This document shows positions 28,047 to 44,091 of a DNA stretch of 64,000 nt, piece after piece (the stretch's first letter is position 1; each line of letters begins with the position of its first letter). The notes below the pieces were generated by a model. It made no database searches, was not told the origin of the DNA, and saw nothing but the letters and a program-made list of their open reading frames with translations. The DNA is from Cyanobium sp. N.Huapi 1H5 (lineage in GTDB: Bacteria; Cyanobacteriota; Cyanobacteriia; PCC-6307; Cyanobiaceae), in assembly GCF_024345535.1 (NCBI RefSeq), contig NZ_JAGQBH010000003.1, positions 310,001-374,000 on the forward strand. The letters are read 5' to 3'. The translations under genes and the position numbers were made by a program.

Positions 28047-28529
28047 ATGCCCCAGGTCAGCCGTCCCGCCAACCAGACGGGTGAATTCCTCGTCGACTAC
28101 GAGGAGAAGGTCTTTCCCGACGTCAAGGCCGAACCCGGTGAGAAGGCCCTGGTCACCTTCCACACCGTGGCCTTCGAAGGCTCCATCGGCCTGGTGAACC
28201 TCCTGCAGGCCAGCCGCCTGATCAACAAGGGCTTCGAGACCTCGATCCTGCTCTACGGCCCCGGCGTGACCCTGGGTCTGCAGCGGGGCTTCCCCAAGCT
28301 GGGCGACGCCGCCTTCGACGGCCACCTCAACTTCGGCGCCCGCATCCAGAAGTTCATGGACCAGGGCGGCAAGGTCTACGCCTGCCGCTTCGCCCTCCAG
28401 GCCCTCTACGGCCACGGCGAAGGCGCCCTGATCCCGGGGATCACCCCGGTCAACCCCCTCGATGTGCTCGACATCGTGCTGCTGCACCGCAAGGAAGGCG
28501 CCTTCATCCTCGACACCTGGACGCTCTGA
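28047..28529 (+). CDS. MSMEG_0572/Sll0783 family nitrogen starvation response protein
   Basis: A 160-residue soluble protein. The pattern [23 protein letters not shown], then [16 protein letters not shown] and the C-terminal [17 protein letters not shown], is the Sll0783 family, related to DsrE-type folds. In Synechocystis the homolog is strongly induced by nitrogen starvation. It is the first gene of the rightward Nit1C transcript; its stop is directly followed by the nitrilase ATG (28530), with no gap. Confidence 0.92.
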
Positions 28530-29519
28530 ATGCCAGCCACGGTCACCGTCGCCGCCGCCCAGATCCGTCCGGTGCTCTACAGCCTGGAGGGATCGGTGGC
28601 GCGGGTGGTGGCGGCCATGGAGGAGGCCGCGGCGGCCGGGGTGCAGCTGATCGTCTTCCCCGAGACGTTCCTGCCTTACTACCCCTACTTCTCCTTCGTG
28701 GAGCCGCCGGTGCTGATGGGGAAGTCGCACCTGAAGCTCTACGAGCAGGCGGTGACGGTGCCCGGCCCGGCCCTGGGCCGGATCGCTGCCGCCGCCCGCC
28801 AGCTCGGCCTGCACGTGCTGCTGGGCATCAACGAGCGCGATGGGGGCAGCCTCTACAACGCCCAGCTGCTGATCGATGCGGCCGGTGAGCTGGTGCTCAA
28901 GCGCCGCAAGCTCACCCCCACGTATCACGAGCGGATGGTGTGGGGCCAGGGGGACGGGGCCGGCCTCCAGGTGGTGCCCACCCCCCTCGGCCGCATCGGC
29001 GCCCTGGCCTGCTGGGAGCACTACAACCCCCTGGCCCGCTTCTGCCTGATGGCCCAGGGCGAGGAGATCCACTGCGCCCAGTTCCCCGGCTCGCTGGTGG
29101 GGCCGATCTTCACCGAGCAGACCGCCGTCACCCTGCGCCACCACGCCCTCGAGGCCGGCTGCTTCGTGGTGTCCTCCACCGCCTGGCTGGAGCCGGAGGA
29201 CATCGAGCGGATCACGCCCGATCCGGTGCTGCAGAAGGCCTGCCAGGGGGGCTGCCACACGGCGGTGATCAGCCCGGAGGGCCGCTACCTGGCCGGGCCG
29301 CTGCCCGATGGCGAGGGGCTGGCCATCGCCGAACTCGACCTGACCCTGATCACCAAACGCAAACGCATGATGGACAGCGTCGGCCACTACAGCCGCCCCG
29401 ACCTGCTGGGGCTGCTGATCGACCGCAGCCCCGCCCGCCAGCTGCATGAGCGGTCCCCCGAGCCCCCCGGCGAGACGGCTCCGGGCCTGCCGCTGCTGGA
29501 GGAGCTGCACCATGGCTGA
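28530..29519 (+). CDS. Nit1 subfamily nitrilase
   Basis: A 329-residue carbon-nitrogen hydrolase that would turn a nitrile into its acid and ammonia. The triad is Glu45 ([11 protein letters not shown]), Lys127 ([11 protein letters not shown]) and Cys161 ([12 protein letters not shown]), with the extra structural Glu134. This is the nitrilase of the Nit1C cluster, related to the Synechocystis Nit6803 enzyme; Nit1C clusters have been linked to cyanide assimilation in Pseudomonas. The frame overlaps the radical SAM gene by eight bases. Confidence 0.95.
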
Positions 29520-30672
29520 GCACGATCGCCGCGCCCTGGGCCGGCGGCTCACCGAACTGCAGGTGCACGGGGTGGTCGACCCGGCGGTGCCCGGCAACCC
29601 CGGCCGCCGGGGCGGTGCCGGCCCCTCCGATCACCGTGCCCTCAGCATCGACGGCACCACGGTGATGGTGCCCGTCTACAACGCCCTGGCCGGCAGCTCG
29701 CCCTACCGGCTGGACACCACGGCCGCAGGCGGCCTCCAGGTGAGCAACGCCGCGGCGGCCGCCCCCGCCGGCGGCCTGAAGGTGAGCGGCCCGGCAGCTG
29801 CCCTGGCCGTCGAGACCCCGCCCGAGCCGCGCTTCTACGGCCTGGCCACCGCCGAGGGCATCCCCTACCGCTCCATCGCCCTGCTGCACGGCCGGGACGT
29901 GCTGGCCACCACCCTCCTGCAGACCTGCATCCGCTTCCGCGACCGCACCCAGTCGTGCCAGTTCTGCGCCATCGAGCAGTCGCTGGAGGATGGCCGCACC
30001 CTCGTGCGAAAGACGCCGGCCCAGGTGGCGGAGGTGGCCGAGGCGGCGGTGCGTCTTGATGGGGTGCGCCAGCTGGTGCTCACCACCGGCACCCCCAACA
30101 GCGACGACCGGGGCGCCAGGCTGATGGCCGAGACCGCCGCCGCCGTCAAGGCCCGGGTGGACCTGCCGATCCAGGCCCAGTGCGAGCCCCCCGAAGACCC
30201 GGCCTGGTACCGGCGCATGAAGGACGCCGGCGTCGACAGCCTCGGCATGCACCTGGAGGTGGTGGAAGAGGAGGTGCGGCGCCGGATCCTGCCGGGCAAA
30301 TCCGAACTGGGACTGGAGCGCTACATGGAGGCCTTCGCCGAGGCCGTGGCGGTGTTCGGCCGCGGCCAGGTGTCCACCTACCTGCTGGCCGGCCTGGGGG
30401 ACAGCGCCGACTCGATCGTGGCGGTGAGCGAGCGGCTGATCGCCCTGGGGGTCTACCCCTTCGTGGTGCCCTTCGTGCCGATCGCCGGCACCCCCCTGGA
30501 GACCCATCCCGCCCCCACCACCGACTTCATGGTGGCGGTCTACACGGCCGTGGGCGACCGGTTGCGGGCCTCCGACCTCAGGTCCGAGGCCATGGCGGCC
30601 GGCTGCGCCAAGTGCGGCGCCTGCTCGGCCCTGTCCCTGTTCGAAGCCGGCCCGGAGCCGGGTACCCCCTGA
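29512..30672 (+). CDS. MSMEG_0568 family radical SAM protein (Nit1C)
   Basis: A 386-residue radical SAM enzyme related to biotin synthase-like proteins. Its cluster cysteines are Cys139, 149 and 152, a C-x9-C-x2-C spacing rather than the usual C-x3-C-x2-C. A last cysteine cluster CAKCGAC lies near 364-370. A Gly/Ala-rich stretch at 72-98 contains a near duplication (GGLQVSN... GGLKVSG), probably a lineage-specific insertion. The ATG at 29512 overlaps the nitrilase end; a longer frame from 29446 is inside the nitrilase. The reaction is unknown. It is followed by the GNAT gene after eight bases. Confidence 0.92.
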
Positions 30673-30680
30673 GCGCGGCC

Positions 30681-31340
30681 ATGTTCTTCATCGACCCCTC
30701 CAGCCACGACATCGGGCGCAGCGCCAGCTCGGCGCCGGCCGCCTTCACCCCCTCGGTGCGGCGGGGAGTGGCGATCGAGGCCGAGGACTTCCGCCTCTCC
30801 CCCACGGCCAGCTCCCAGCGCTTCTCCTTCCATCTGCTGCGGCGCGGCACGCCCCTGGAGGAGGGCTACTGGCAGCTGCGCAGCGCCATCTTCTGCCAGG
30901 AGCAGCATCTGTTCGAAGACTCCGACCGGGATGAGAAGGATGGCCATGCCTATCCCATCGCCGCCCTTGATCACGGCGCCGGCAGCGGCAGCGGCGTGGT
31001 GGGGGTGGTGCGGATCCTGGAGGAGCGGCCCCGCCTCTGGTATGGCGGCCGGCTGGGGGTGCACGGCGACCACCGCCGCCACAACCAGATCGGCAAGGGC
31101 CTGATCTGGAAGGCGGTGACGACAGCCAACGGCTGGGGCTGCGACCGCTTCCTGGCCACGGTGCAGCTCCAGAACGTGCGGTTCTTCCAGCGCCTGCACT
31201 GGACGTCGATCGACACCCTGGAGATCCGCGGCCTGCCCCACCACCTGATGGAGGCCGACCTCGCCTACTACCAGCCCGGCCACGAACGGCGCCCCCTGGT
31301 GGCGAGCGAGACGTCGGTGGGCGAGGTGGCGGCGGCGTGA
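30681..31340 (+). CDS. MSMEG_0567/Sll0786 family N-acetyltransferase (Nit1C)
   Basis: A 219-residue GNAT-fold protein. The N-terminal part includes LEEGYWQLRSAIFCQEQHLFEDSDRDE, and the acetyl-CoA loop region is RLGVHGDHRRHNQIGKGLIWKAV. It ends with a GTGA overlap with the AIR-synthase-like gene. It belongs to the Nit1C operon; the acceptor is unknown. The ATG at 30681 directly follows the SAM gene. Confidence 0.92.
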   Translation: MFFIDPSSHDIGRSASSAPAAFTPSVRRGVAIEAEDFRLSPTASSQRFSFHLLRRGTPLEEGYWQLRSAIFCQEQHLFEDSDRDEKDGHAYPIAALDHGAGSGSGVVGVVRILEERPRLWYGGRLGVHGDHRRHNQIGKGLIWKAVTTANGWGCDRFLATVQLQNVRFFQRLHWTSIDTLEIRGLPHHLMEADLAYYQPGHERRPLVASETSVGEVAAA

Positions 31341-32335
31341 GTCGCCCCGGGCCGCAGGATCCTGATCTGGCGGCCCTGGCCGCCCGGCTGCGCCAGCTCC
31401 GCGGCCTCACCGGCAAAACCGACATCCAGCCCCCGGCGGCCACCTTCCCCCACCAGCCCTTCCCAGCCCTGGGGCCCGCCGCCGCCCTCGGCGACGACGC
31501 CGCCCTGCTGCCGGCGGTGGCCACCCCGCTGCTGCTCGCCAGTGAGGGCATCGATCCGTCCCTGGTGGCCGCCGACCCCTGGTTCGCCGGCTGGTGCGGG
31601 GTGCTGGTGAACCTCAGCGACATCGCCGCCATGGGCGGCACCCCGATCGCGGTGGTGAACAGCCTCTGGTGCCGCAGCCCCGCCCAGGCGGAACCGATCC
31701 TGGCGGGTCTGCGCCGGGCCTCGGAGGTGTTCGGGGTGCCGGTGGTGGGGGGCCACACCAACCTGCACAGCCCCTACGACGCCCTGGCGGTGGCGGTGCT
31801 GGGCACGGCCGCCGGCCCGGTGCTCTCGGCTCGCGCCGCCCGTCCCGGCGACCACTGCCACCTGCTGATCGACCCCAACGGCGGCTTCCGCGGCGACTCC
31901 CTCTGCTGGGATGCGGCCACCGATGCCGAGCCCGCCCGGCTGCGCCGCCAGCTGGCCCTGATGGCGGATCTGGCGGCCGATGGGAGCGTCCATGCCGCCA
32001 AGGACATCAGCATGGGCGGCCTGGTGGGCACCGCCGCCATGCTCTGCGAGGCGGCCGGCTGCGGCCTGACCCTGGATCTGGCGGCGATCCAGCCCCCCGA
32101 GGGGGTGGCGCTGGAGTCCTGGCTCACCTGCTTCCCCAGCTTCGGCTTCCTGCTGGCCGCCCGGCCCGATCAGGAGGGCCGGCTGGCGGAGCGGGTGGCC
32201 GCCTGCGGCGGGCTGCTGCTGGCGCGGATCGGCACGTTCAGCGCCGAGCGCCAGCTGGTGCTGGAGGCGGGGGGCCGGCAGGAGGAGATCTGGCGCGGGG
32301 AGGCGCCGCTCACCGGTTTCGGCGTGCTGTCGTGA
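31337..32335 (+). CDS. Sll0787 family AIR synthase-like protein (Nit1C)
   Basis: A 332-residue PurM-superfamily ATP-binding protein. Signatures include ALGDDAALLP, VNLSDIAAMGGTPIAVVNS, VVGGHTNLHSP and AAKDISMGGLVGTAAML, matching the AIR synthase/thiamine-monophosphate kinase/selenophosphate synthetase fold. It probably phosphorylates or activates a substrate of the Nit1C pathway. GTG start at 31337 overlaps the GNAT stop (GTGA). Confidence 0.92.
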   Translation: MSRPGPQDPDLAALAARLRQLRGLTGKTDIQPPAATFPHQPFPALGPAAALGDDAALLPAVATPLLLASEGIDPSLVAADPWFAGWCGVLVNLSDIAAMGGTPIAVVNSLWCRSPAQAEPILAGLRRASEVFGVPVVGGHTNLHSPYDALAVAVLGTAAGPVLSARAARPGDHCHLLIDPNGGFRGDSLCWDAATDAEPARLRRQLALMADLAADGSVHAAKDISMGGLVGTAAMLCEAAGCGLTLDLAAIQPPEGVALESWLTCFPSFGFLLAARPDQEGRLAERVAACGGLLLARIGTFSAERQLVLEAGGRQEEIWRGEAPLTGFGVLS

Positions 32336-32396
32336 TCGCCACCACAACCAGCGCGGCCCCGGCCCACAATCCTGCCAATGGGTGGTGGGGGGCGCC

Positions 32397-32672
32397 ATGC
32401 CGGAAGTGGAGCTGACGCTGGAATGGCCGGATGGGGGCAGGAGCCGCCTCTATTCGCCGTCCACGGTGATCCTTGAGCACCTCGCCCCGGGCCAGACCAT
32501 GACGGTGGCGGAGCTGCGCAGCAAGGGCACCCTGGCGCTGCGGCAGGCCTCCGAGCGGGTGCGGGCCCGCTACGGCTTCGCCTGCACCCGGGCCGACGAG
32601 GAGGAACGGCGCCTGCTGGAGCAGGCGGCAGCCTTCGCCGCCGAAGAGCTCGTGAGCGTCCAGGCCGCCTAG
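32397..32672 (+). CDS. MSMEG_0570 family nitrogen starvation response protein (Nit1C)
   Basis: A 91-residue soluble protein with MPEVELTLEWPDG at the start and the SPSTVILEHL and SERVRARYGFACTRADEE blocks, matching the MSMEG_0570 family. It is the last gene of the cluster. A frame from 32382 would add five residues, but the ATG at 32397 begins the conserved region. No glycosyltransferase of the MSMEG_0565 type follows, so this is the seven-gene form (0569, 0572, nitrilase, 0568, 0567, AIR-like, 0570). Confidence 0.9.
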   Translation: MPEVELTLEWPDGGRSRLYSPSTVILEHLAPGQTMTVAELRSKGTLALRQASERVRARYGFACTRADEEERRLLEQAAAFAAEELVSVQAA

Positions 32673-35263: not shown

Positions 35264-35791
35264 TCAGCCGCCGGCCACGGCGCTGGGCACCGCGTGCAGC
35301 GCCTGGGTCTCCTCCGGGCCCAGCACCAGCTCCGTCGATGCCTCTCCCGCCAGGGGCAGGCTGAGGACCAGGGGCAGGGCGTCGCTGGGGCGGGGCAGCA
35401 GGTCCGCCATGTCGAACTGGGCCGAGCTCTCCGGCAGGGCCCCAGCCCCGGCCGCCACCAGCTCCTCGCTGCGGTTGGCCAGGGTCCAGGAGCCGCCGAC
35501 GCCGTCGCTGAGCAGCAGGGGCCGGCTGTGGTCGACGGCGATCCCCGGGGTGAGGGCACTGAGGCGCAGGCGCTCGCCGCTGGGGTAGGCGGGATCGGGC
35601 TGCTCGAAGATCCGCAGCGACCAGCGGTTGTCGTCCCGGTCGCGCAGGCTCCAGCGCTGGCCGTCGTCAGCCCGGGCCAGGCCGGGCGCCAGGGTCAGCA
35701 GCAGCACCAGCAGCAGGGCCACCAGCGACGCCGCCCAGGGCCGGACGCCGCTGGCGGGGGAGCCCGGAACAGGTTGAGCAGAAGCACGCAT
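35264..35791 (-). CDS. DUF3122-like secreted cyanobacterial protein
   Basis: A 175-residue protein with a signal peptide (hydrophobic segment [21 protein letters not shown], about 25-45). The mature part begins [23 protein letters not shown] and continues [21 protein letters not shown], the DUF3122 pattern. Function unknown; location periplasm or lumen. The ATG at 35791 is the start; divergent from psbA with 127 bases between. Confidence 0.78.
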
Positions 35792-35918
35792 GGGGAGCAG
35801 CCCCGGCACGGGGTCATTCAACGTTATCGTTTTATCGTCCGGCAGCGGCAGGCGACATGGTCGCAAGGCGGTGTCGCCACCCGTCGCTCCCGGTCTGTCC
35901 ATCTTCGGATGTCCTGCC

Positions 35919-36998
35919 ATGACTCTCACCACCCTGTCGCGTTCCGGGGGCCATCCCTGGGATCGCTTCAAGAACTGGGTCACCAGCACCGAGAACCGCC
36001 TCTACGTGGGCTGGTTCGGCGTGCTGATGATCCCCACCCTGCTCACGGCCACCGCCTGCTTCGTCATCGCCTTCATCGGCGCCCCGCCCGTCGACATTGA
36101 CGGCATCCGGGAGCCCGTCTCCGGCGGCCTGCTCTACGGCAACAACATCATCACCGCCGCCGTCGTGCCATCGAGCAACGCCATCGGCCTGCACTTCTAC
36201 CCCATCTGGGAAGCCGCCAGCCTCGACGAGTGGCTCTACAACGGCGGCCCCTACCAGCTGATCATCTTCCACTTCCTGATCGGCATCTTCTGCTGGATGG
36301 GCCGGGAGTGGGAACTCAGCTACCGGCTGGGGATGCGCCCCTGGATCGCCGTGGCCTACTCCGCCCCGGTGGCCGCCGCCACCGCCGTGCTGCTGATCTA
36401 TGCGATCGGCCAGGGCTCCTTCTCCGATGCCATGCCCCTGGGCATCTCCGGCACCTTCAACTTCATGCTGGTGCTGCAGGCGGAGCACAACGTGCTCATG
36501 CACCCCTTCCACATGCTCGGGGTGGTGGGGATCTTCGGCGGCGCCCTGTTCTCCGCCATGCACGGCTCGCTCGTCACCAGCTCCCTGGTGCGGGAGACCA
36601 CCGAAACCGAGTCCCAGAACCGGGGCTACAAGTTCGGCCAGGAGGAGGAGACCTACAACATCGTGGCCGCCCACGGCTACTTCGGCCGGCTGATCTTCCA
36701 GTACGCCTCCTTCAACAACAGTCGCAGCCTGCATTTCCTTCTGGCCGCCTGGCCGGTGGTGGGGATCTGGTTCGCGGCTCTTGCGGTGGTGAGCTTCTCG
36801 TTCAACCTCAACGGGCTGAACTTCAACCACTCGATCCTGGATCACCAGGGCCGCGTGGTCGACACCTGGGCCGACATCCTCAACCGCGGCGGCCTGGGCA
36901 TCGAGGCGATGCACGAGCGCAACGTGCACAACTTCCCCCTCGATCTGGCGGCCGCCGCCAGCACCCCCGTGGCTCTCACGGCGCCGCCGATCGGTTAG
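35919..36998 (+). CDS. psbA: Photosystem II D1 protein, D1' (low-oxygen) variant
   Basis: A 359-residue D1 reaction-centre protein with five helices and standard numbering. Cofactor residues are intact: Tyr161, Asp170, Glu189, His190, His198, His215, His272, His332, Glu333, His337, Asp342 and Ala344. It carries Ala80, Leu158 and Ala286, the three replacements (G80A, F158L, T286A) reported to define D1' proteins, which are induced under low oxygen. Other changes from ordinary D1 are P162A, G171A, F186L, C144A, Y126W and Y235R; Glu130 is of the high-light type. The C-terminal extension after Ala344 is present and would be cut off by CtpA. ATG 35919 gives the canonical length; a strong terminator follows. 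Confidence 0.95.
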
Positions 36999-37106: not shown

Positions 37107-37640
37107 ATGGCCCGCCCCCCCTACCAACCCTCCCTGCTGCGGCTGACCCATGGCGTCACGGCGTTGCTGGTGCTGGCCGCCTGGCTGAGCGGGCTGATCG
37201 TCTACAGCCGCTACGACGGCCGCTGGGGGCGGCTGCCGTTCACCCCGCCCGGCAGCTGGATCGACCTGCACGGCCAGGCGGGATTCCTGCTGCTGCCCCT
37301 GGGCCTGGTCTTCGCCGCCTACGCCCTCACCCTGGGCCGGGCACGCCTGAAGCGCAACACCAACGCCATGGCCCTGGGGGCCCTGGTGCTGGCGGTGGCC
37401 ACCGGCAAGCTGATGCAGGAGGACTGGCTGCGGGACGGCCAGCTGCACCACCTGGCCTACAGCCTGCACCTGGTGGCCTGGCTGCTGATCGGCCTGGCCG
37501 TGGTGCTGCACGTGGGCGACAGCCTGCGGCTGGGGGGCACGCCGCTGCTGGCCTCGATGGCCAGCACGACCCTGCGGCCGGGCGATCGGCCTGGCGACTG
37601 GCCGGGGCAGGTGCGGCGGTTTCTGAAGCGGGGGGGCTGA
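37107..37640 (+). CDS. Cytochrome b561-like membrane protein
   Basis: A 177-residue protein with four membrane helices. Candidate haem-ligand histidines lie in RLTHGV (helix 1), DLHGQAG (helix 2), LHHLAYSLHLV (helix 3) and VLHVGD (helix 4), as in b561/b6-type two-haem proteins. It would move electrons across the membrane; partner unknown. The ATG at 37107 is used; a frame from 37074 starts inside the terminator. Placed after the D1' gene but separated by the terminator, so probably transcribed alone. Confidence 0.82.
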   Translation: MARPPYQPSLLRLTHGVTALLVLAAWLSGLIVYSRYDGRWGRLPFTPPGSWIDLHGQAGFLLLPLGLVFAAYALTLGRARLKRNTNAMALGALVLAVATGKLMQEDWLRDGQLHHLAYSLHLVAWLLIGLAVVLHVGDSLRLGGTPLLASMASTTLRPGDRPGDWPGQVRRFLKRGG

Positions 37641-37752: not shown

Positions 37753-37983
37753 ATGCGCAGCACCATCACCGCCCGCGGCCAGACGGTGGTTCCGGCCCCG
37801 ATCCGCGAACGCTTCCAGCTGGGTCCATCGACGCGGCTGGAATGGATCGTGGAGGGCGACGGGACCATCCGTGTGGTTCCCGTTGCCCTGGATCCCATCA
37901 CCGCCTTCCGCGGCTCCGGCGCCGGAGGCGCCACCACCCGTCTGCTCGCCGATCGCCGCCACGATCGCCAGCAGGAGGCCTGA
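37753..37983 (+). CDS. vapB: AbrB/MazE-fold antitoxin (VapB type)
   Basis: A 76-residue protein. The N-terminal swapped-hairpin domain is STITARGQTVVPAPIRERFQLGPSTRL, typical of AbrB/SpoVT antitoxins; the C-terminal tail, rich in Arg and Asp, would bind and block the toxin. It overlaps the PIN toxin start by one base (TGATG). Expected to bind the palindrome at 37717-37749 and repress its own operon. Confidence 0.9.
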   Translation: MRSTITARGQTVVPAPIRERFQLGPSTRLEWIVEGDGTIRVVPVALDPITAFRGSGAGGATTRLLADRRHDRQQEA

Positions 37984-38384
37984 TGGCCGGCCGCTGGCTG
38001 CTCGACACCTCCGCCCTGCTGGCCCTGCGCGACAACGAAACCGGCGCGGAGCGCGTCGCGGAACTGCTGCAGCGCTCCCAGGCCCGCCAGGGCAGCTGCC
38101 TGGTGTGCTTCATGAGCCGCATGGAGTTGCTCTACCGGGTGTGGAAGGACGAAGACGAACGGGCCGCCCGCCTCGCCGATGCCCAGCTGCGATCCCTGCC
38201 CCTGGATTGGGTGGCGGCCAGTGACGCTCTGCTGGACCGGGCGGCGGCCATCAAGGCCACCCATCCCCTCTCCGTGGCCGATGCCTGGATCGCCGCCGCC
38301 GCTGAGCAGGAGGGGGCGGTGCTGGTGCACAAGGATCCTGAGTTCCGCTCCCTGGCCCACCTTCCCCAGGACTGGCTGGGCTGA
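37983..38384 (+). CDS. vapC: VapC-type PIN-domain ribonuclease toxin
   Basis: A 133-residue PIN protein. The four acidic residues that bind Mg2+ are visible: Asp8 (LLDTSALL), Glu in SRMELLYRV, Asp in SVADAWIAAA and Asp in LVHKDPEF. VapC toxins cut tRNA or rRNA when freed from the antitoxin. The ATG overlaps the antitoxin stop. Length normal; no frameshift, so the toxin should be active. Confidence 0.9.
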   Translation: MAGRWLLDTSALLALRDNETGAERVAELLQRSQARQGSCLVCFMSRMELLYRVWKDEDERAARLADAQLRSLPLDWVAASDALLDRAAAIKATHPLSVADAWIAAAAEQEGAVLVHKDPEFRSLAHLPQDWLG

Positions 38385-38435
38385 TAGGGCCTGCTGGGAC
38401 TGGCCCCAGCAGGTGCGGCGCTTCTGGAAGCGGGG

Positions 38436-38690
38436 TTAATAGTGATACCGCAGCTGGGCCAGCAGGAGAGCGTCACCGTCGACCTTGTAGACCATGCGGT
38501 GCTCGTCGTTGATGCGGCGTGACCAGTAGCCAGCGAGCGCGTGTTTCAGCGCTTCCGGCTTGCCTGTGCCTGAAAACGGCGTCCGAGACGCTTCCATGAT
38601 CAGTGCGTTGATGCGCTTGAGCAGGACCTTGTCGGTGGCTTGCCAGTGGAGGTAATCCTCCCAGGCCTGCTCAGCGAAGATCAGCCTCAT
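38436..38690 (-). CDS. yoeB: YoeB/Txe family mRNA interferase toxin
   Basis: An 84-residue RelE-superfamily toxin that would cut mRNA in the ribosome. The YoeB active-site set is intact: Glu in KPEALKH, Arg in WSRRINDEHRMVY, and the C-terminal His-Tyr of RYHY. It overlaps the antitoxin gene by four bases. Length and ends match the family exactly. Confidence 0.93.
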   Translation of the reverse strand: MRLIFAEQAWEDYLHWQATDKVLLKRINALIMEASRTPFSGTGKPEALKHALAGYWSRRINDEHRMVYKVDGDALLLAQLRYHY

Positions 38691-38938
38691 TCGCTGAGGC
38701 TCCGCTCCTGGCCCTGGCCCGCGTCCAGGCTGGCCGTCGCCTGCAGCAGACGCCTGGCATTCTCAGGGACCCGCAGCAGATAGGCGGTTTCCTCGAGGGC
38801 TTTGAAGTCCTCCAGGGACATCATCACCACTGATTTCTGCCCATTGCGGGTAATGATCAGCGGCTCATGGTCGGCGCAGACCCGGTTCATGGTCTGCGCC
38901 AGGTTGGCGCGGGCCGCTGTGTAGGTGATGGCGTCCAT
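38687..38938 (-). CDS. yefM: YefM/Phd family antitoxin
   Basis: An 83-residue antitoxin beginning MDAITYTAARANLAQTMNRV and continuing PLIITRNGQKSVVMMSLEDFKALEET, the classic YefM pattern. The C-terminal 25 residues, Gln/Glu-rich, would wrap the toxin. The ATG at 38938 gives the family start; a second ATG at 38956 would add six residues. Two GTAC motifs 12 bases apart lie just upstream. Confidence 0.93.
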   Translation of the reverse strand: MDAITYTAARANLAQTMNRVCADHEPLIITRNGQKSVVMMSLEDFKALEETAYLLRVPENARRLLQATASLDAGQGQERSLSE

Positions 38939-38956
38939 CGGCAGACCGTCCGTCAT

Positions 38957-38972
38957 GTACGCGTTACTGTAC
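38957..38972. promoter_or_regulatory. YefM operator-like repeat
   Basis: TGTAC motifs with GTAC at 38957-38960 and 38969-38972 are spaced 12 bases centre to centre. This is the spacing known for YefM-YoeB operators in E. coli. Confidence 0.55.
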
Positions 38973-39071
38973 GGCTGGCCGATTGCGAAAGCGGATCCTC
39001 CTGACGCTTGGGGGAGGTTCAAGTGCCACCGTTTCGGTTGCAGAATGGTTGCCGCTGCTCCGGCAACGGCC

Positions 39072-39320
39072 ATGGCCAGGAGCCTCACCCTCAAGAATCT
39101 CCCCGACGACCTCTACGGCCGCCTCAAGCAAGCGGCCAGGCAGCATCGCCGCAGCCTCAACAACGAAGCGATCGTGTGCCTGGAAGCGGCCCTTCCGCCC
39201 CAGGCCATTACGGCCGCCGAGCGACTGGAGCAGATCCGGGCCCTGCGTCACAGCCTGCCGACGGAAACGGCGTTCACGCCTGACCAGATCGAAGCCTTCA
39301 AGCGCGAGGGCCGCCCGTGA
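39072..39320 (+). CDS. FitA-like ribbon-helix-helix antitoxin
   Basis: An 82-residue protein. The N-terminal ribbon-helix-helix reads SLTLKNLPDDLYGRLKQAARQ followed by HRRSLNNEAIVCLEAAL, as in FitA/Arc-type antitoxins. The C-terminal ETAFTPDQIEAFKREGRP would cover the toxin. It overlaps the PIN toxin by four bases (GTGA). The longer frame from 38925 runs through the YefM promoter region. Confidence 0.88.
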   Translation: MARSLTLKNLPDDLYGRLKQAARQHRRSLNNEAIVCLEAALPPQAITAAERLEQIRALRHSLPTETAFTPDQIEAFKREGRP

Positions 39321-39718
39321 TCGTGGTGGACACCAACGTGGTGGCCTACCTGTTGCTCCCAGGCCCCCAGACCGGGAAGGCCGAGGCACTGCTGCTTCAC
39401 GACCCTGAATGGGCCGCTCCAGTGCTCTGGCGCAGCGAGCTGCGCAACGTGCTCAGCGGTTACCTGCGACGCGGGCAGCTGGATCACCAGCAGGTGCTGA
39501 GGCTCCAGGGCCAGGCGGAAGCCTTGTTGCAAGGCTCGGAAGTAGCGGTGGATTCCGCCGACGTGTTCCGGCTGGTGGAGGCGAGCGGCTGCAGCGCCTA
39601 CGACTGTGAGTTCGTGGCGGCCGCCCTGGCACTCCAGACCCGCCTGATCACCTCCGATCGCCAACTGCTGCGGACTTTCCCCACCCTTGCCAGCCCGTTG
39701 GAGCACGCCGTGCCCTGA
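39317..39718 (+). CDS. PIN-domain toxin (VapC/FitB type)
   Basis: A 133-residue PIN protein with Asp5 (VVDTNVVAYL), Glu in WRSELRNVL, Asp in AYDCEFVAAA and Asp in ITSDRQLL: all four metal ligands are present. GTG start within the antitoxin stop. Different subfamily from the PIN toxin at 37983, so it arose by separate acquisition. Confidence 0.88.
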   Translation: MIVVDTNVVAYLLLPGPQTGKAEALLLHDPEWAAPVLWRSELRNVLSGYLRRGQLDHQQVLRLQGQAEALLQGSEVAVDSADVFRLVEASGCSAYDCEFVAAALALQTRLITSDRQLLRTFPTLASPLEHAVP

Positions 39719-41707: not shown

Positions 41708-42829
41708 ATGGCCGTTGCGCCTGCGCCCTCCCTCTGCCTCGCCGCCGCCGCAGGGGGCAACCCGCTGCTGTTCCGCCAGCTGTTCGACGCCGACACCGGC
41801 ACCTTCACCTACCTGCTGGTCGATGTGGCCAGCCACAAGGCCCTGCTGATCGATTCAGTCTTCGAGCAGCACGATCGCGACCTGGCGCTGATCCGGGAAC
41901 TGGGCCTCGAGCTGGTGGCCGCGATCGACACCCACGCCCATGCCGACCACGTGACCGGCAGCTGGCTGATGCACGAGGCCACCGGCTGCGCCATCGGCCT
42001 GGCGGCCAGCGTCGGCGCCGAGAACGTCACCCGCCCCCTGAAGCACGGCGATCGCGTCCTCTTCGGCGGCCGCCATGTGGACGTGCGCGCCACCCCCGGC
42101 CACACCGACGGCTGCCTCACCTTCGTCCTCGACGACCACACGATGGCCTTCACCGGCGACGCCCTGCTGGTGCGCGGCTGCGGCCGCTGCGACTTCCAGC
42201 AGGGCAACGCCCACACCCTCTGGGCCTCGATCACCGGCCAGATCCTGACCCTGCCGGATCACTGCCTGCTCTATCCCGGCCACGACTACACCGGCCGCAG
42301 CGTCACCTCCGTCACCGAGGAGAAGGCCTTCAACGCCCGCCTCGGCGGCAATGCCACCGAGCGGGACTTCGTGGGCCACATGGAGAACATGCGGCTGCCC
42401 CATCCCCACCGGATCGCCCAGGCCCTGCCGGGCAACATGCGCTCCGGCAAGCCCCGCGACGCCAGCACCGCCCCGGCCTGGGCGCCCATGGCCCGCAGCT
42501 ATGCCGGACTGCCCGAACTCAGCCCCGCCTGGGTGGCCGCCCACCGCGGCGATGTCACCGTGCTGGATGTGCGATCCGCCGAGGAGTTCGACGGTCCCGA
42601 CGGGCACGTGGCCGGCAGCCTGCTGATCCCCCTGCCGGAGCTGGAGAGCCGCACCGGCGAGATCCCCGCTGATCGCCCGCTGGTGGTGGTCTGCCATTCG
42701 GGCAGCCGCTCGGCCCTGGCCACCCAGCAGCTGCTCAAAGCCGGCCGTACCCAGGTGGCCAACCTCCACGGCGGCCTGAGCCGCTGGGCCGCCGAGGGCT
42801 TCCCCCTCGAGGGAGTCGTGCAGGCCTGA
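41708..42829 (+). CDS. Persulfide dioxygenase-rhodanese fusion (MBL fold)
   Basis: A 373-residue protein. The metallo-beta-lactamase half (about 20-240) is of the ETHE1/persulfide dioxygenase type with HAHADH (His76, His78, Asp80, His81), TPGHTDG and YPGHDYTG metal sites. The rhodanese half (about 275-373) has the catalytic cysteine in VVVCHSGSRSA. It would oxidise glutathione persulfide to sulfite and shuttle the sulfane sulfur. It is followed by a second rhodanese gene, making a sulfide/persulfide detoxification pair. No ArsR-type regulator lies nearby. Confidence 0.9.
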   Translation: MAVAPAPSLCLAAAAGGNPLLFRQLFDADTGTFTYLLVDVASHKALLIDSVFEQHDRDLALIRELGLELVAAIDTHAHADHVTGSWLMHEATGCAIGLAASVGAENVTRPLKHGDRVLFGGRHVDVRATPGHTDGCLTFVLDDHTMAFTGDALLVRGCGRCDFQQGNAHTLWASITGQILTLPDHCLLYPGHDYTGRSVTSVTEEKAFNARLGGNATERDFVGHMENMRLPHPHRIAQALPGNMRSGKPRDASTAPAWAPMARSYAGLPELSPAWVAAHRGDVTVLDVRSAEEFDGPDGHVAGSLLIPLPELESRTGEIPADRPLVVVCHSGSRSALATQQLLKAGRTQVANLHGGLSRWAAEGFPLEGVVQA

Positions 42830-42870
42830 AGCGCTGCCAAGTGAATTCCATCCCATTCGTTCCTCTCTCC

Positions 42871-43437
42871 ATGACCACCACAACCATGAAAGGCACAACC
42901 GTCACCACCCCCAGCCGCCTGGGCGCCCACGACCTGGCCGAACGGCTGGCGGCCGGCGAGGTCACCGTGATCGATGTGCGCGAGCCGATGGAGTTCGCCA
43001 CCGGCCACATCGCCGGCAGCCTCAACGTGCCCCTCTCCCGCCTGGCCCAGGCCGACCTGCCCCGCGGCCCGCTGGTGCTGGTCTGCCAGAGCGGCAACCG
43101 CAGCGCCAAAGGCCTCGCCCAGCTGCTCCAGCAGGGCCACCCCCACCCGGTGGCCGACCTGCTCGGTGGCGTGCCCGCCTGGCGGCAGGCCGGCTTCCCG
43201 GTGCGCCAGCTCAAGGGGGCGCCGCTGCCGCTGATGCGCCAGGTGCAGATCGTCGCCGGAAGCCTGGTGCTGCTGGGGTTGATCCTGTCGCAGGCCGTGG
43301 CCCCCGGCTGGATCTGGCTGAGCGGCTTCGTGGGGGCCGGGCTCACCTTCGCGGGCATCTCCGGCTTCTGCGGCATGGCCCGCCTGCTGGCCGTGATGCC
43401 CTGGAACCGGGTGTCGCTCGGCTCAGCCCGGGGCTGA
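42871..43437 (+). CDS. Rhodanese-DUF2892 membrane protein (YgaP-like)
   Basis: A 188-residue protein with a rhodanese domain (about 15-110; catalytic Cys in LVLVCQSGNRSAKG) and two membrane helices in a DUF2892 tail (MRQVQIVAGSLVLLGLILS; WLSGFVGAGLTFAGISG), as in E. coli YgaP. It would pass sulfane sulfur at the inner membrane. Start uncertain: GTG 42841, ATG 42871 or ATG 42886, none with a good binding site. Overlaps the convergent methyltransferase by 15 bases. Confidence 0.87.
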   Translation: MTTTTMKGTTVTTPSRLGAHDLAERLAAGEVTVIDVREPMEFATGHIAGSLNVPLSRLAQADLPRGPLVLVCQSGNRSAKGLAQLLQQGHPHPVADLLGGVPAWRQAGFPVRQLKGAPLPLMRQVQIVAGSLVLLGLILSQAVAPGWIWLSGFVGAGLTFAGISGFCGMARLLAVMPWNRVSLGSARG

Positions 43438-44091
43438 GCCGCCGGCTCCGGGCGAAATCGGCCGGCGCCACAGCCCCAGCCATTCGTCCGGGCGCTGGTC
43501 CACCGAACCGGTGGCCGGCTCCCAGAGCTCGGCCAACAGGCCGGCCCGGCCCAGCTGGGCGGCCACCACCTCGGGGTCGCTGCCCCAGGGCGGACCGCCC
43601 GGGTTGCCGTGGCACCAGAACAGCCCCAGCAGCCAGCCGCCCGGCGCCAGCAGCCGGCAGACGCTGGCAATGTAGTCGTCGCGGCGGCCCGGATCGATGG
43701 CGCAGAAGCAGGTGTGCTCCACGACCCCCGTGAGGCTGCCGGGCGCCAGACCCGCCGCCTCCAGGGCGGGCCCGTCGAACAGGTCGGCCTGCAGCCAGCG
43801 CAGGCCGGGGCGCTCCGGGCCATGGAGGCCGCGGGCTTCTGCAAGGGCCTCGCTGCTGAAATCCAGGCCGATAGCCGCGAAGCCGAGCTGCTCGAGCAGG
43901 GCGGCCTCATGGCCGCGGCCGCAGCCCGGCACCAGCACCGGGCCCGGGGGCCGGGGGGCCAGCGGATGGCTGCGCAGGAACCGCTCCAGGGGCGGAGCCG
44001 GCCGGCCCAGTTCCCAGCCGTCGGTGCCCTGCCGGTAGCGCTGGTCCCAGTGGCCTGGCTCAGCGGTGGAGGCCGGCGTGGAGGGGTTCAT
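43423..44091 (-). CDS. Thiopurine/thiol methyltransferase-like enzyme
   Basis: A 222-residue SAM-dependent methyltransferase. Motif I is VLVPGCGRGHEAALLEQ; the N-terminal HWDQRYRQGTDGWELGRPAPPL is the TPMT-family opening, and GVVEHTCFCAIDPGRRDDY is the typical post-IV block. These enzymes methylate thiols, selenium, halides or arsenic species. Location beside persulfide-handling genes would fit thiol or sulfide methylation, but this is inference. ATG at 44091. Confidence 0.87.
   Translation of the reverse strand: MNPSTPASTAEPGHWDQRYRQGTDGWELGRPAPPLERFLRSHPLAPRPPGPVLVPGCGRGHEAALLEQLGFAAIGLDFSSEALAEARGLHGPERPGLRWLQADLFDGPALEAAGLAPGSLTGVVEHTCFCAIDPGRRDDYIASVCRLLAPGGWLLGLFWCHGNPGGPPWGSDPEVVAAQLGRAGLLAELWEPATGSVDQRPDEWLGLWRRPISPGAGGSAPG

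Follow-up and report, generated by a model that had tools for sequence, protein, structure and literature searches.

The window examined here, the whole 64,000-nucleotide stretch of Cyanobium sp. N.Huapi 1H5 DNA, holds a psbA gene that had been predicted from its letters to encode D1′. The locus raises two questions: which form of the photosystem II (PSII) core subunit the gene makes, and what condition would call for it. The significance of D1′ is described as still unclear in the text consulted of PMC4582080. D1′ itself is known. In the open-licence literature, we found no report of the ArsR/acsF gene set, the W126 lineage, D1′ in Cyanobium or the Cyanobiaceae arrangement, in which the operator is another one and the switch possibly of ArsR type.

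Table 1. Features around the D1′ gene, in window coordinates.
Feature	Position	Strand	Basis and remarks
psbA encoding D1′ (359 aa)	35919..36998	+	Reading frame with TAG stop; TIGR01151 match; residues
Palindrome TTCAACGTTATCGTTTTA, putative operator	35817..35834	.	Common to relatives' D1′ promoters and a heme oxygenase–hemN promoter on another contig
DUF3122 protein gene (175 aa)	35264..35791	-	PF11320, 46.1 bits; divergent from psbA across the palindrome
Cytochrome b561-like gene	37107..37640	+	PF01292, 43.4 bits; downstream of psbA

Residues and genomic copies of the window psbA

In a profile search, the psbA equivalog TIGR01151 scored the window gene at 718.3 bits against a cut-off of 596. 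Canonical numbering places D59, D61, Y161, D170, E189, H190, H198 and H215, and likewise S264, H272, H332, E333, H337, D342 and A344; the Mn, TyrZ, P680 and QB residue sets are all complete. The residue table thus agrees with the original prediction that D59, D61, Y161 and the other functional residues fall in place and that the Mn ligands are kept. A80, L158 and A286, also foreseen there, are all present in the alignment, and this triad is what we take as the definition of D1′.

The host genome (3.14 Mb, 99.92% complete) contains four full-length psbA genes, the window copy included. The three others are 80–83% identical to it, two of them encoding identical proteins, and all carry G80/F158/T286 with P162, G171, F186, Y126 and Y235. 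Around P680, TyrZ and PheoD1, the window protein departs from the other host D1 proteins at a fixed set of positions. The psbA alignment had been proposed as a comparison that would overturn the assignment, should A80/L158/A286 turn up in the main copies; because the other three copies are G/F/T, that objection fails in the host genome at the sequence level. Rogue D1 (ChlF), reported in PMC4582080 to have changed water-oxidising-complex and QB surroundings and ~65% identity to D1, was rejected on the complete ligands and the 80–83% identity to the other host D1 copies.

Compared with seven relatives, the window gene has a dN/dS of 0.06–0.20, and on this measure it looks maintained. A low dN/dS by itself does little to prove use, because frameshifted D1′ copies also have low values past their insert (0.09 and 0.14). 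These belong to a group of three genus genomes whose D1′ (L116 in G011, L117 in G001 and L119 in G002) is thrown out of frame by 23 bp inserted after codon 47, the same place in each; G002 additionally has a large deletion, and in the other two the frame beyond the insert stays open and dN/dS is low. Together with an extra copy in another genome that has two in-frame TAG codons, and with a window that has no Tll0287-like neighbour, they would fit a gene that is rarely used and decaying. The window copy, however, is intact, with low dN/dS, complete ligands and an exact palindrome, and we consider decay highly unlikely here.

The D1′ class among cyanobacteria

A psbA set was assembled from named contigs (80 loci out of more than 585 matches) and from genus and family genomes. 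Once exact DNA duplicates had been removed, 52 A/L/A copies (49 from Cyanobiaceae, 3 from others), 73 G/F/T copies and 5 other copies were left, frameshifted D1′ copies not being counted in the 52 and 73. Among these collected loci, A/L/A and G/F/T form two clean classes, and the 5 other copies belong to neither. The 73 standard and 52 D1′ genes are split without exception by positions 186 (Phe/Leu), 192 (Ile/Val) and 293 (Met/Phe).

Pro162 is found in 73/73 standard genes and replaced in 52/52 D1′ genes (30 Ala, 19 Ser, 3 Gly); F186L occurs in all 52 D1′ genes, and Arg235 in 43 of them, at a position that is Tyr in 71 standard genes and Ala in 2. Loss of P162, F186L and, mostly, Y235R are fixed or nearly fixed in D1′ and are therefore class traits. 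The original prediction had listed P162A, G171A, F186L, Y126W and Y235R as changes added to the D1′ pattern: all five are real, but P162A, F186L and Y235R are not additions to the class. Judging by their distribution in the alignment, Y126W (Trp126 in 38/52 D1′ versus 1/73 standard genes) and G171A (Ala171 in 17/52 D1′) are marks of sub-lineages. Because Y126 is a hydrogen-bond partner of PheoD1 and is reported in PMC12107152 as invariant among the three Thermosynechococcus isoforms, Y126W is the most unusual residue of the window lineage.

In a quick maximum-likelihood tree of 97 rows, a branch with SH-aLRT 95 parts all 42 A/L/A rows from all 51 standard rows. Among the A/L/A rows are those of Pseudanabaena, Arthrospira and Synechocystis salina; the standard side also includes T. 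elongatus PsbA2 and a single row with A80/F158/T286. The tree separates D1′ from standard D1, a single D1′ clade being neither shown nor excluded by a tree of this quick kind. Residues, tree and the contrast with the other host copies agree on D1′ as the identity of the window product.

To judge from these alignments, single positions are not diagnostic of D1′. Ala286 is carried by T. vulcanus PsbA1 (PMC12107152), and two filamentous cyanobacteria (L048, L059) combine A80 with F158/T286. A80 alone was rejected as a D1′ mark, since L048, L059, L181 and L184 have it without A286. L181 (G049) and L184 (G130) are odd long-branch psbA genes with A80, P162, L186, R235, A264 and S286, and L181 also carries Glu at the Mn-ligand position 170. 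In the D1′ gene of Synechococcus sp. ATX 2A4 (L013, psbA 1478-2554), Tyr takes the place of the Mn ligand His332, either a real change or a sequence error.

Among 400 family genomes, an A80 pattern matched 49, all of at least 2.1 Mb, and gave no match in the small-genome groups g10, g17 and g56. As a count of D1′ genomes this 49/400 is a lower bound, because the pattern missed the D1′ of G005, G026, G035 and G039.

One residue could point to another condition. The window protein has E130, reported as a residue of high-light D1 forms (PMC4582080), and the gene might accordingly be read as a high-light rather than a low-oxygen D1. E130 is present in 51/52 D1′ genes but also in 48/73 standard genes, two host standard copies among them, and being this common in standard genes it is not diagnostic of high-light D1. 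The promoter partner of the window gene, moreover, is a heme oxygenase–hemN pair and not stress genes, which makes a high-light form very improbable.

Gene neighbourhood of D1′

A divergent DUF3122 gene lies within 1 kb of D1′ at 40/47 Cyanobiaceae loci, versus 0/66 standard psbA loci, and a Tll0287-like gene (PF11845) follows within ~4.5 kb at 26/38 D1′ loci, versus 0/59 standard loci. Neither neighbour was found at three D1′ loci outside the Cyanobiaceae. In close relatives of the window (L007, L088, L091-L093, L188 and L191) the order is DUF3122, D1′, Tll0287-like, cytochrome b561. The window has no Tll0287-like gene, including between D1′ and the cytochrome b561-like gene; a Pfam search of the host genome for the Tll0287 type also gave no match, but the search controls gave none either. 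A heme protein that seemed to copurify with T. elongatus PsbA2-PSII was identified as Tll0287 (PMC4582080), an association that by analogy would be an independent link of the Tll0287-like gene to D1′.

Further from psbA, about 5–8 kb after it, window positions 41708-44091 encode a metallo-beta-lactamase/rhodanese protein, a rhodanese with a YgaP-like membrane part and a methyltransferase. A similar rhodanese-type block, with an ArsR-type gene, follows D1′ at a g9 locus (L182, 7283-10029); such blocks are possibly related to sulfide or persulfide. Inspection of the open reading frame list by eye also picked out several small toxin–antitoxin-like gene pairs after the cytochrome b561 gene (37753-39718) and a run of nitrilase, radical-SAM and AIR-synthase-like genes resembling a Nit1-type cluster (28047-32672).

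A palindrome common to the D1′ and heme oxygenase promoters

The upstream regions of 54 D1′-type genes contain a conserved palindrome ~60–140 bp before the start codon, with the consensus TTCAACGNTANYGTTNTA; its inner TA hardly varies, the two letters being kept in 42 and 43 of 43 aligned sites. A conserved upstream TTGAG...CAT block, considered as a -35 element, turned out to be where the coding sequence of the divergent DUF3122 gene begins.

Among Cyanobiaceae D1′ upstream regions of sufficient length, 33/48 match at least 12 of the 15 fixed motif positions, versus 0/71 for standard psbA, and 15/48 score below 12/15; at a threshold of 11/15 the counts are 40/48 versus 4/71. None of three D1′ genes outside the Cyanobiaceae reaches 12/15.

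The exact pattern AACRNTANYGTTNTA occurs once in the window, at the palindrome site, and in none of 100 shuffles; in the host genome it occurs twice, where 0.002 sites are expected under a first-order model trained on the window. With such counts, a general promoter element is unlikely. The R in AACRNTANYGTTNTA was admitted to fit the heme oxygenase site after this had been seen, and the 16-mer CAACGNTANCGTTNTA was derived from D1′ promoters alone. At up to one mismatch, CAACGNTANCGTTNTA is found at only two places in the host genome (0.045 expected under a first-order model), one in the D1′ promoter and the other 52 bp upstream of a heme oxygenase–hemN pair.

This host pair, a heme oxygenase gene (PF01126) followed by hemN (TIGR00538), is on a contig other than the window's. 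We take the heme oxygenase to be the presumed ho2 isoform because hemN adjoins it. Three further genes start within 4 kb upstream of it: acsF (TIGR02029), one for L-lactate dehydrogenase (TIGR01771) and one resembling aldehyde-deformylating oxygenase, whose match is below the cut-off.

The exact pattern was also searched for in 44 hand-chosen genomes, most of them with D1′, yielding 36 sites in 25 genomes compared with 6 for the reversed control; 19/44 had no exact site, D1′-bearing ones among them. Of the 36 sites, 35 precede D1′ (19, including a few genes that are broken or partial) or heme oxygenase (16), as assigned by reading 29 loci and by coordinates for 6; the remaining site is at a contig end (G185:C45:99). 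Since the pattern was learned in part from the D1′ sites, the cleaner, independent test is given by the other genomes' 15 heme oxygenase sites; and because the genomes are related, counts across them are not independent. Within the genus, 20/28 heme oxygenase upstream regions hold a site matching at least 10/11 positions; the other 8 include one that was not located and one where the gene is cut.

D1′ and these genes are also physically linked in some genomes. At 11/40 loci, from five genera, D1′ lies within ~5 kb of acsF, ado, heme oxygenase or hemN, the 40 loci including two non-D1′ copies and some partial genes; none of five ten-kb loci of the window's genus has such linkage. Two g9 loci (L180, L182) have the order heme oxygenase, hemN, DUF3122 on the opposite strand, D1′, Tll0287-like. 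In three genomes the heme oxygenase gene has an in-frame TGA (L220 in G026, L222 in G024, L223 in G036).

Candidate regulators of the palindrome

Between a pentapeptide-repeat gene and acsF, and divergent from acsF, the host genome encodes a 101-aa ArsR-type protein (PF01022; G000:C11:66213-66515). Its position beside acsF makes it a candidate regulator of the palindrome, a hypothesis that draws on gene order and co-occurrence. All 35 homologues read are without Cys, and lacking Cys the protein has no evident oxygen-sensing chemistry.

Upstream of arsR is a related, weaker motif near ATCACGNTGNCGTTATG. All of eight arsR/acsF regions score 8–10 of 12 motif positions, in a scoring run without a control. 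Among 30 regulator loci, no start was obtained for 2 and the upstream sequence of 1 was 18 bp long, which left 27 for a shuffle test; 8 of these 27 were not below 5% in their own test, and L283 had no motif at all.

Searches of the 400 family genomes found the regulator in 102, the heme oxygenase in 83 and the A80 pattern in 49; among these 49, 43 carry the regulator and 44 the heme oxygenase. G049 and G130, the two genomes with odd A80 copies, have no regulator, heme oxygenase match or exact palindrome. For a second count these two (Ser286, Pro162) were removed and G005, G026, G035 and G039 added, giving 51 D1′ genomes. The regulator then occurs in 47/51 D1′ genomes versus 55/349 others (Fisher p ~8e-28, uncorrected for ancestry), and the heme oxygenase in 48/51 versus 35/349 (p ~1e-35, likewise uncorrected). 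As the 55/349 shows, many genomes in which no D1′ was detected also have the regulator.

The same low-oxygen gene set might instead be controlled by SufR or another Fe–S regulator binding the palindrome. The SufR box is given as CAAC-N6-GTTG in PMC13421787, and several D1′ sites fit it exactly, such as CAACGCTAGTGTTG in L123 and CAACGCTATCGTTG in L016, with the window palindrome (CAAC-GTTATC-GTTT) matching 7/8 positions. The host genome has sufR, whose Fe–S cluster would account for oxygen sensing. The box, however, does not require the palindrome's nearly constant inner TA. In the 4 kb around host sufR we found neither an exact SufR box nor a D1′-type site, and the palindrome upstream of that gene is a different one, GAAAC-N6-GTTTC. 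The ArsR-type gene, moreover, co-occurs with D1′ and adjoins acsF. We regard control by SufR or a similar protein as unlikely, although with a better claim than the decay and high-light readings.

ChlR offers a precedent from Synechocystis 6803, where it activates chlAII-ho2-hemN and its active variant binds the psbA1 promoter (PMC4500134), and it could in principle control the window gene in the same manner. The ChlR box (TTMCC-N3/4-GGWAA, up to one mismatch) is absent, however, from the host D1′, heme oxygenase and arsR/acsF upstream regions, and among the 54 D1′-type upstream regions it was found in one, that of Synechocystis salina. The best MarR match in the host shows no Cys-x4-6-Cys-Pro by eye. 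ChlR control of the window gene is extremely improbable, the least probable of the alternatives we weighed.

Proposed role and comparison with known systems

Probably, the window psbA makes D1′, the low-oxygen isoform of the PSII core subunit, and is one of a set of low-oxygen genes. This role, which the original prediction had drawn by analogy from other cyanobacteria, is independently supported at the level of sequence by the palindrome held in common with heme oxygenase–hemN, by the linkage in other genera and by the Tll0287-type neighbour of relatives. Low oxygen would be the cue, upon which a regulator acting on the palindrome may turn D1′ on with low-oxygen heme, bilin and chlorophyll enzymes. 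That regulator could be the 101-aa ArsR-type protein divergent from acsF, serving hypothetically as a repressor in air or an activator at low oxygen. PSII made in hypoxic cells would then contain D1′ in place of D1 and would still oxidise water, with altered energetics. Oxygen evolution is expected because the ligands are complete. For PsbA2, PMC9709244 reports that steps of TyrZ oxidation are slower and that Ala286 is unable to form a hydrogen bond with PD1; by analogy, retuned electron transfer with oxygen evolution kept would be expected here.

Tentatively, and with slightly less than even confidence, we propose a picocyanobacterial low-oxygen programme of D1′, heme oxygenase, HemN and AcsF, together with DUF3122 and often a Tll0287-type heme protein, that has its own switch, a Cys-free ArsR-type regulator acting on AACRNTANYGTTNTA and replacing ChlR with its Fe–S cluster. 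The proposal extends to Trp126, found in much of the lineage where T. elongatus has the Tyr that hydrogen-bonds PheoD1: with it, low-oxygen PSII may have acceptor-side energetics unseen in studied D1′. A rare palindrome at D1′ and heme oxygenase–hemN in many genomes would tie D1′ to oxygen limitation in an abundant group from the DNA alone, and it suggests one gene set under different switches in different cyanobacteria. The operator, the 101-aa regulator and the partner genes (DUF3122 and the Tll0287-like heme protein) are concrete objects for testing, and the residue set and promoter mark could be used to find hypoxia-ready picocyanobacteria in metagenomes.

A close counterpart is in Synechocystis 6803, where psbA1 (D1′) and chlAII-ho2-hemN are described as low-oxygen genes (PMC4500134). 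Its ChlR regulon, chlAII-ho2-hemN with psbA1, is similar in content to the acsF, heme oxygenase, hemN and D1′ set here. There the regulator is a MarR-type protein with an Fe–S cluster, whereas here the candidate is an ArsR-type protein without Cys; with a similar gene set and the ChlR box absent from the host promoters, the operator differs. The D1′ of Synechocystis salina (L074) resembles the window protein in A80, L158, A286, L186, V336, complete ligands and the loss of Pro162 (S162 in S. salina), and differs in having Q130, C144 and Q235 for E130, A144 and R235; its upstream region has a ChlR box where the window has the palindrome.

T. elongatus PsbA2 (PDB 7yq2) has A80, L158, A286 and E130 like the window protein, and its partner Tll0287 (PMC4582080) has a counterpart in the Tll0287-like gene downstream of D1′ in relatives of the window. 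Unlike the window protein, PsbA2 keeps P162, F186 and Y235, has M173 and P144, and falls on the standard side of the tree. Group 3 psbA genes of Geitlerinema sp. PCC 9228 and others are reported for microaerobic use, sometimes near sqr (PMC5061849); their likeness to the window psbA is drawn from this published description.

The best PDB match of the window D1′, at 706.5 bits, is the D1′ of Arthrospira (L017; PDB 8wql chain AD), with A80, L158, S162, L186, R235, A286 and V336. It differs from the window in Y126 and G171, and in the stretch read has no palindrome, DUF3122 or Tll0287-like neighbour. The D1 of 8wql is identical to the D1′ product of Arthrospira PCC 9108 (L017 5001-6077), so that this PSII model either carries D1′ or was given its sequence.
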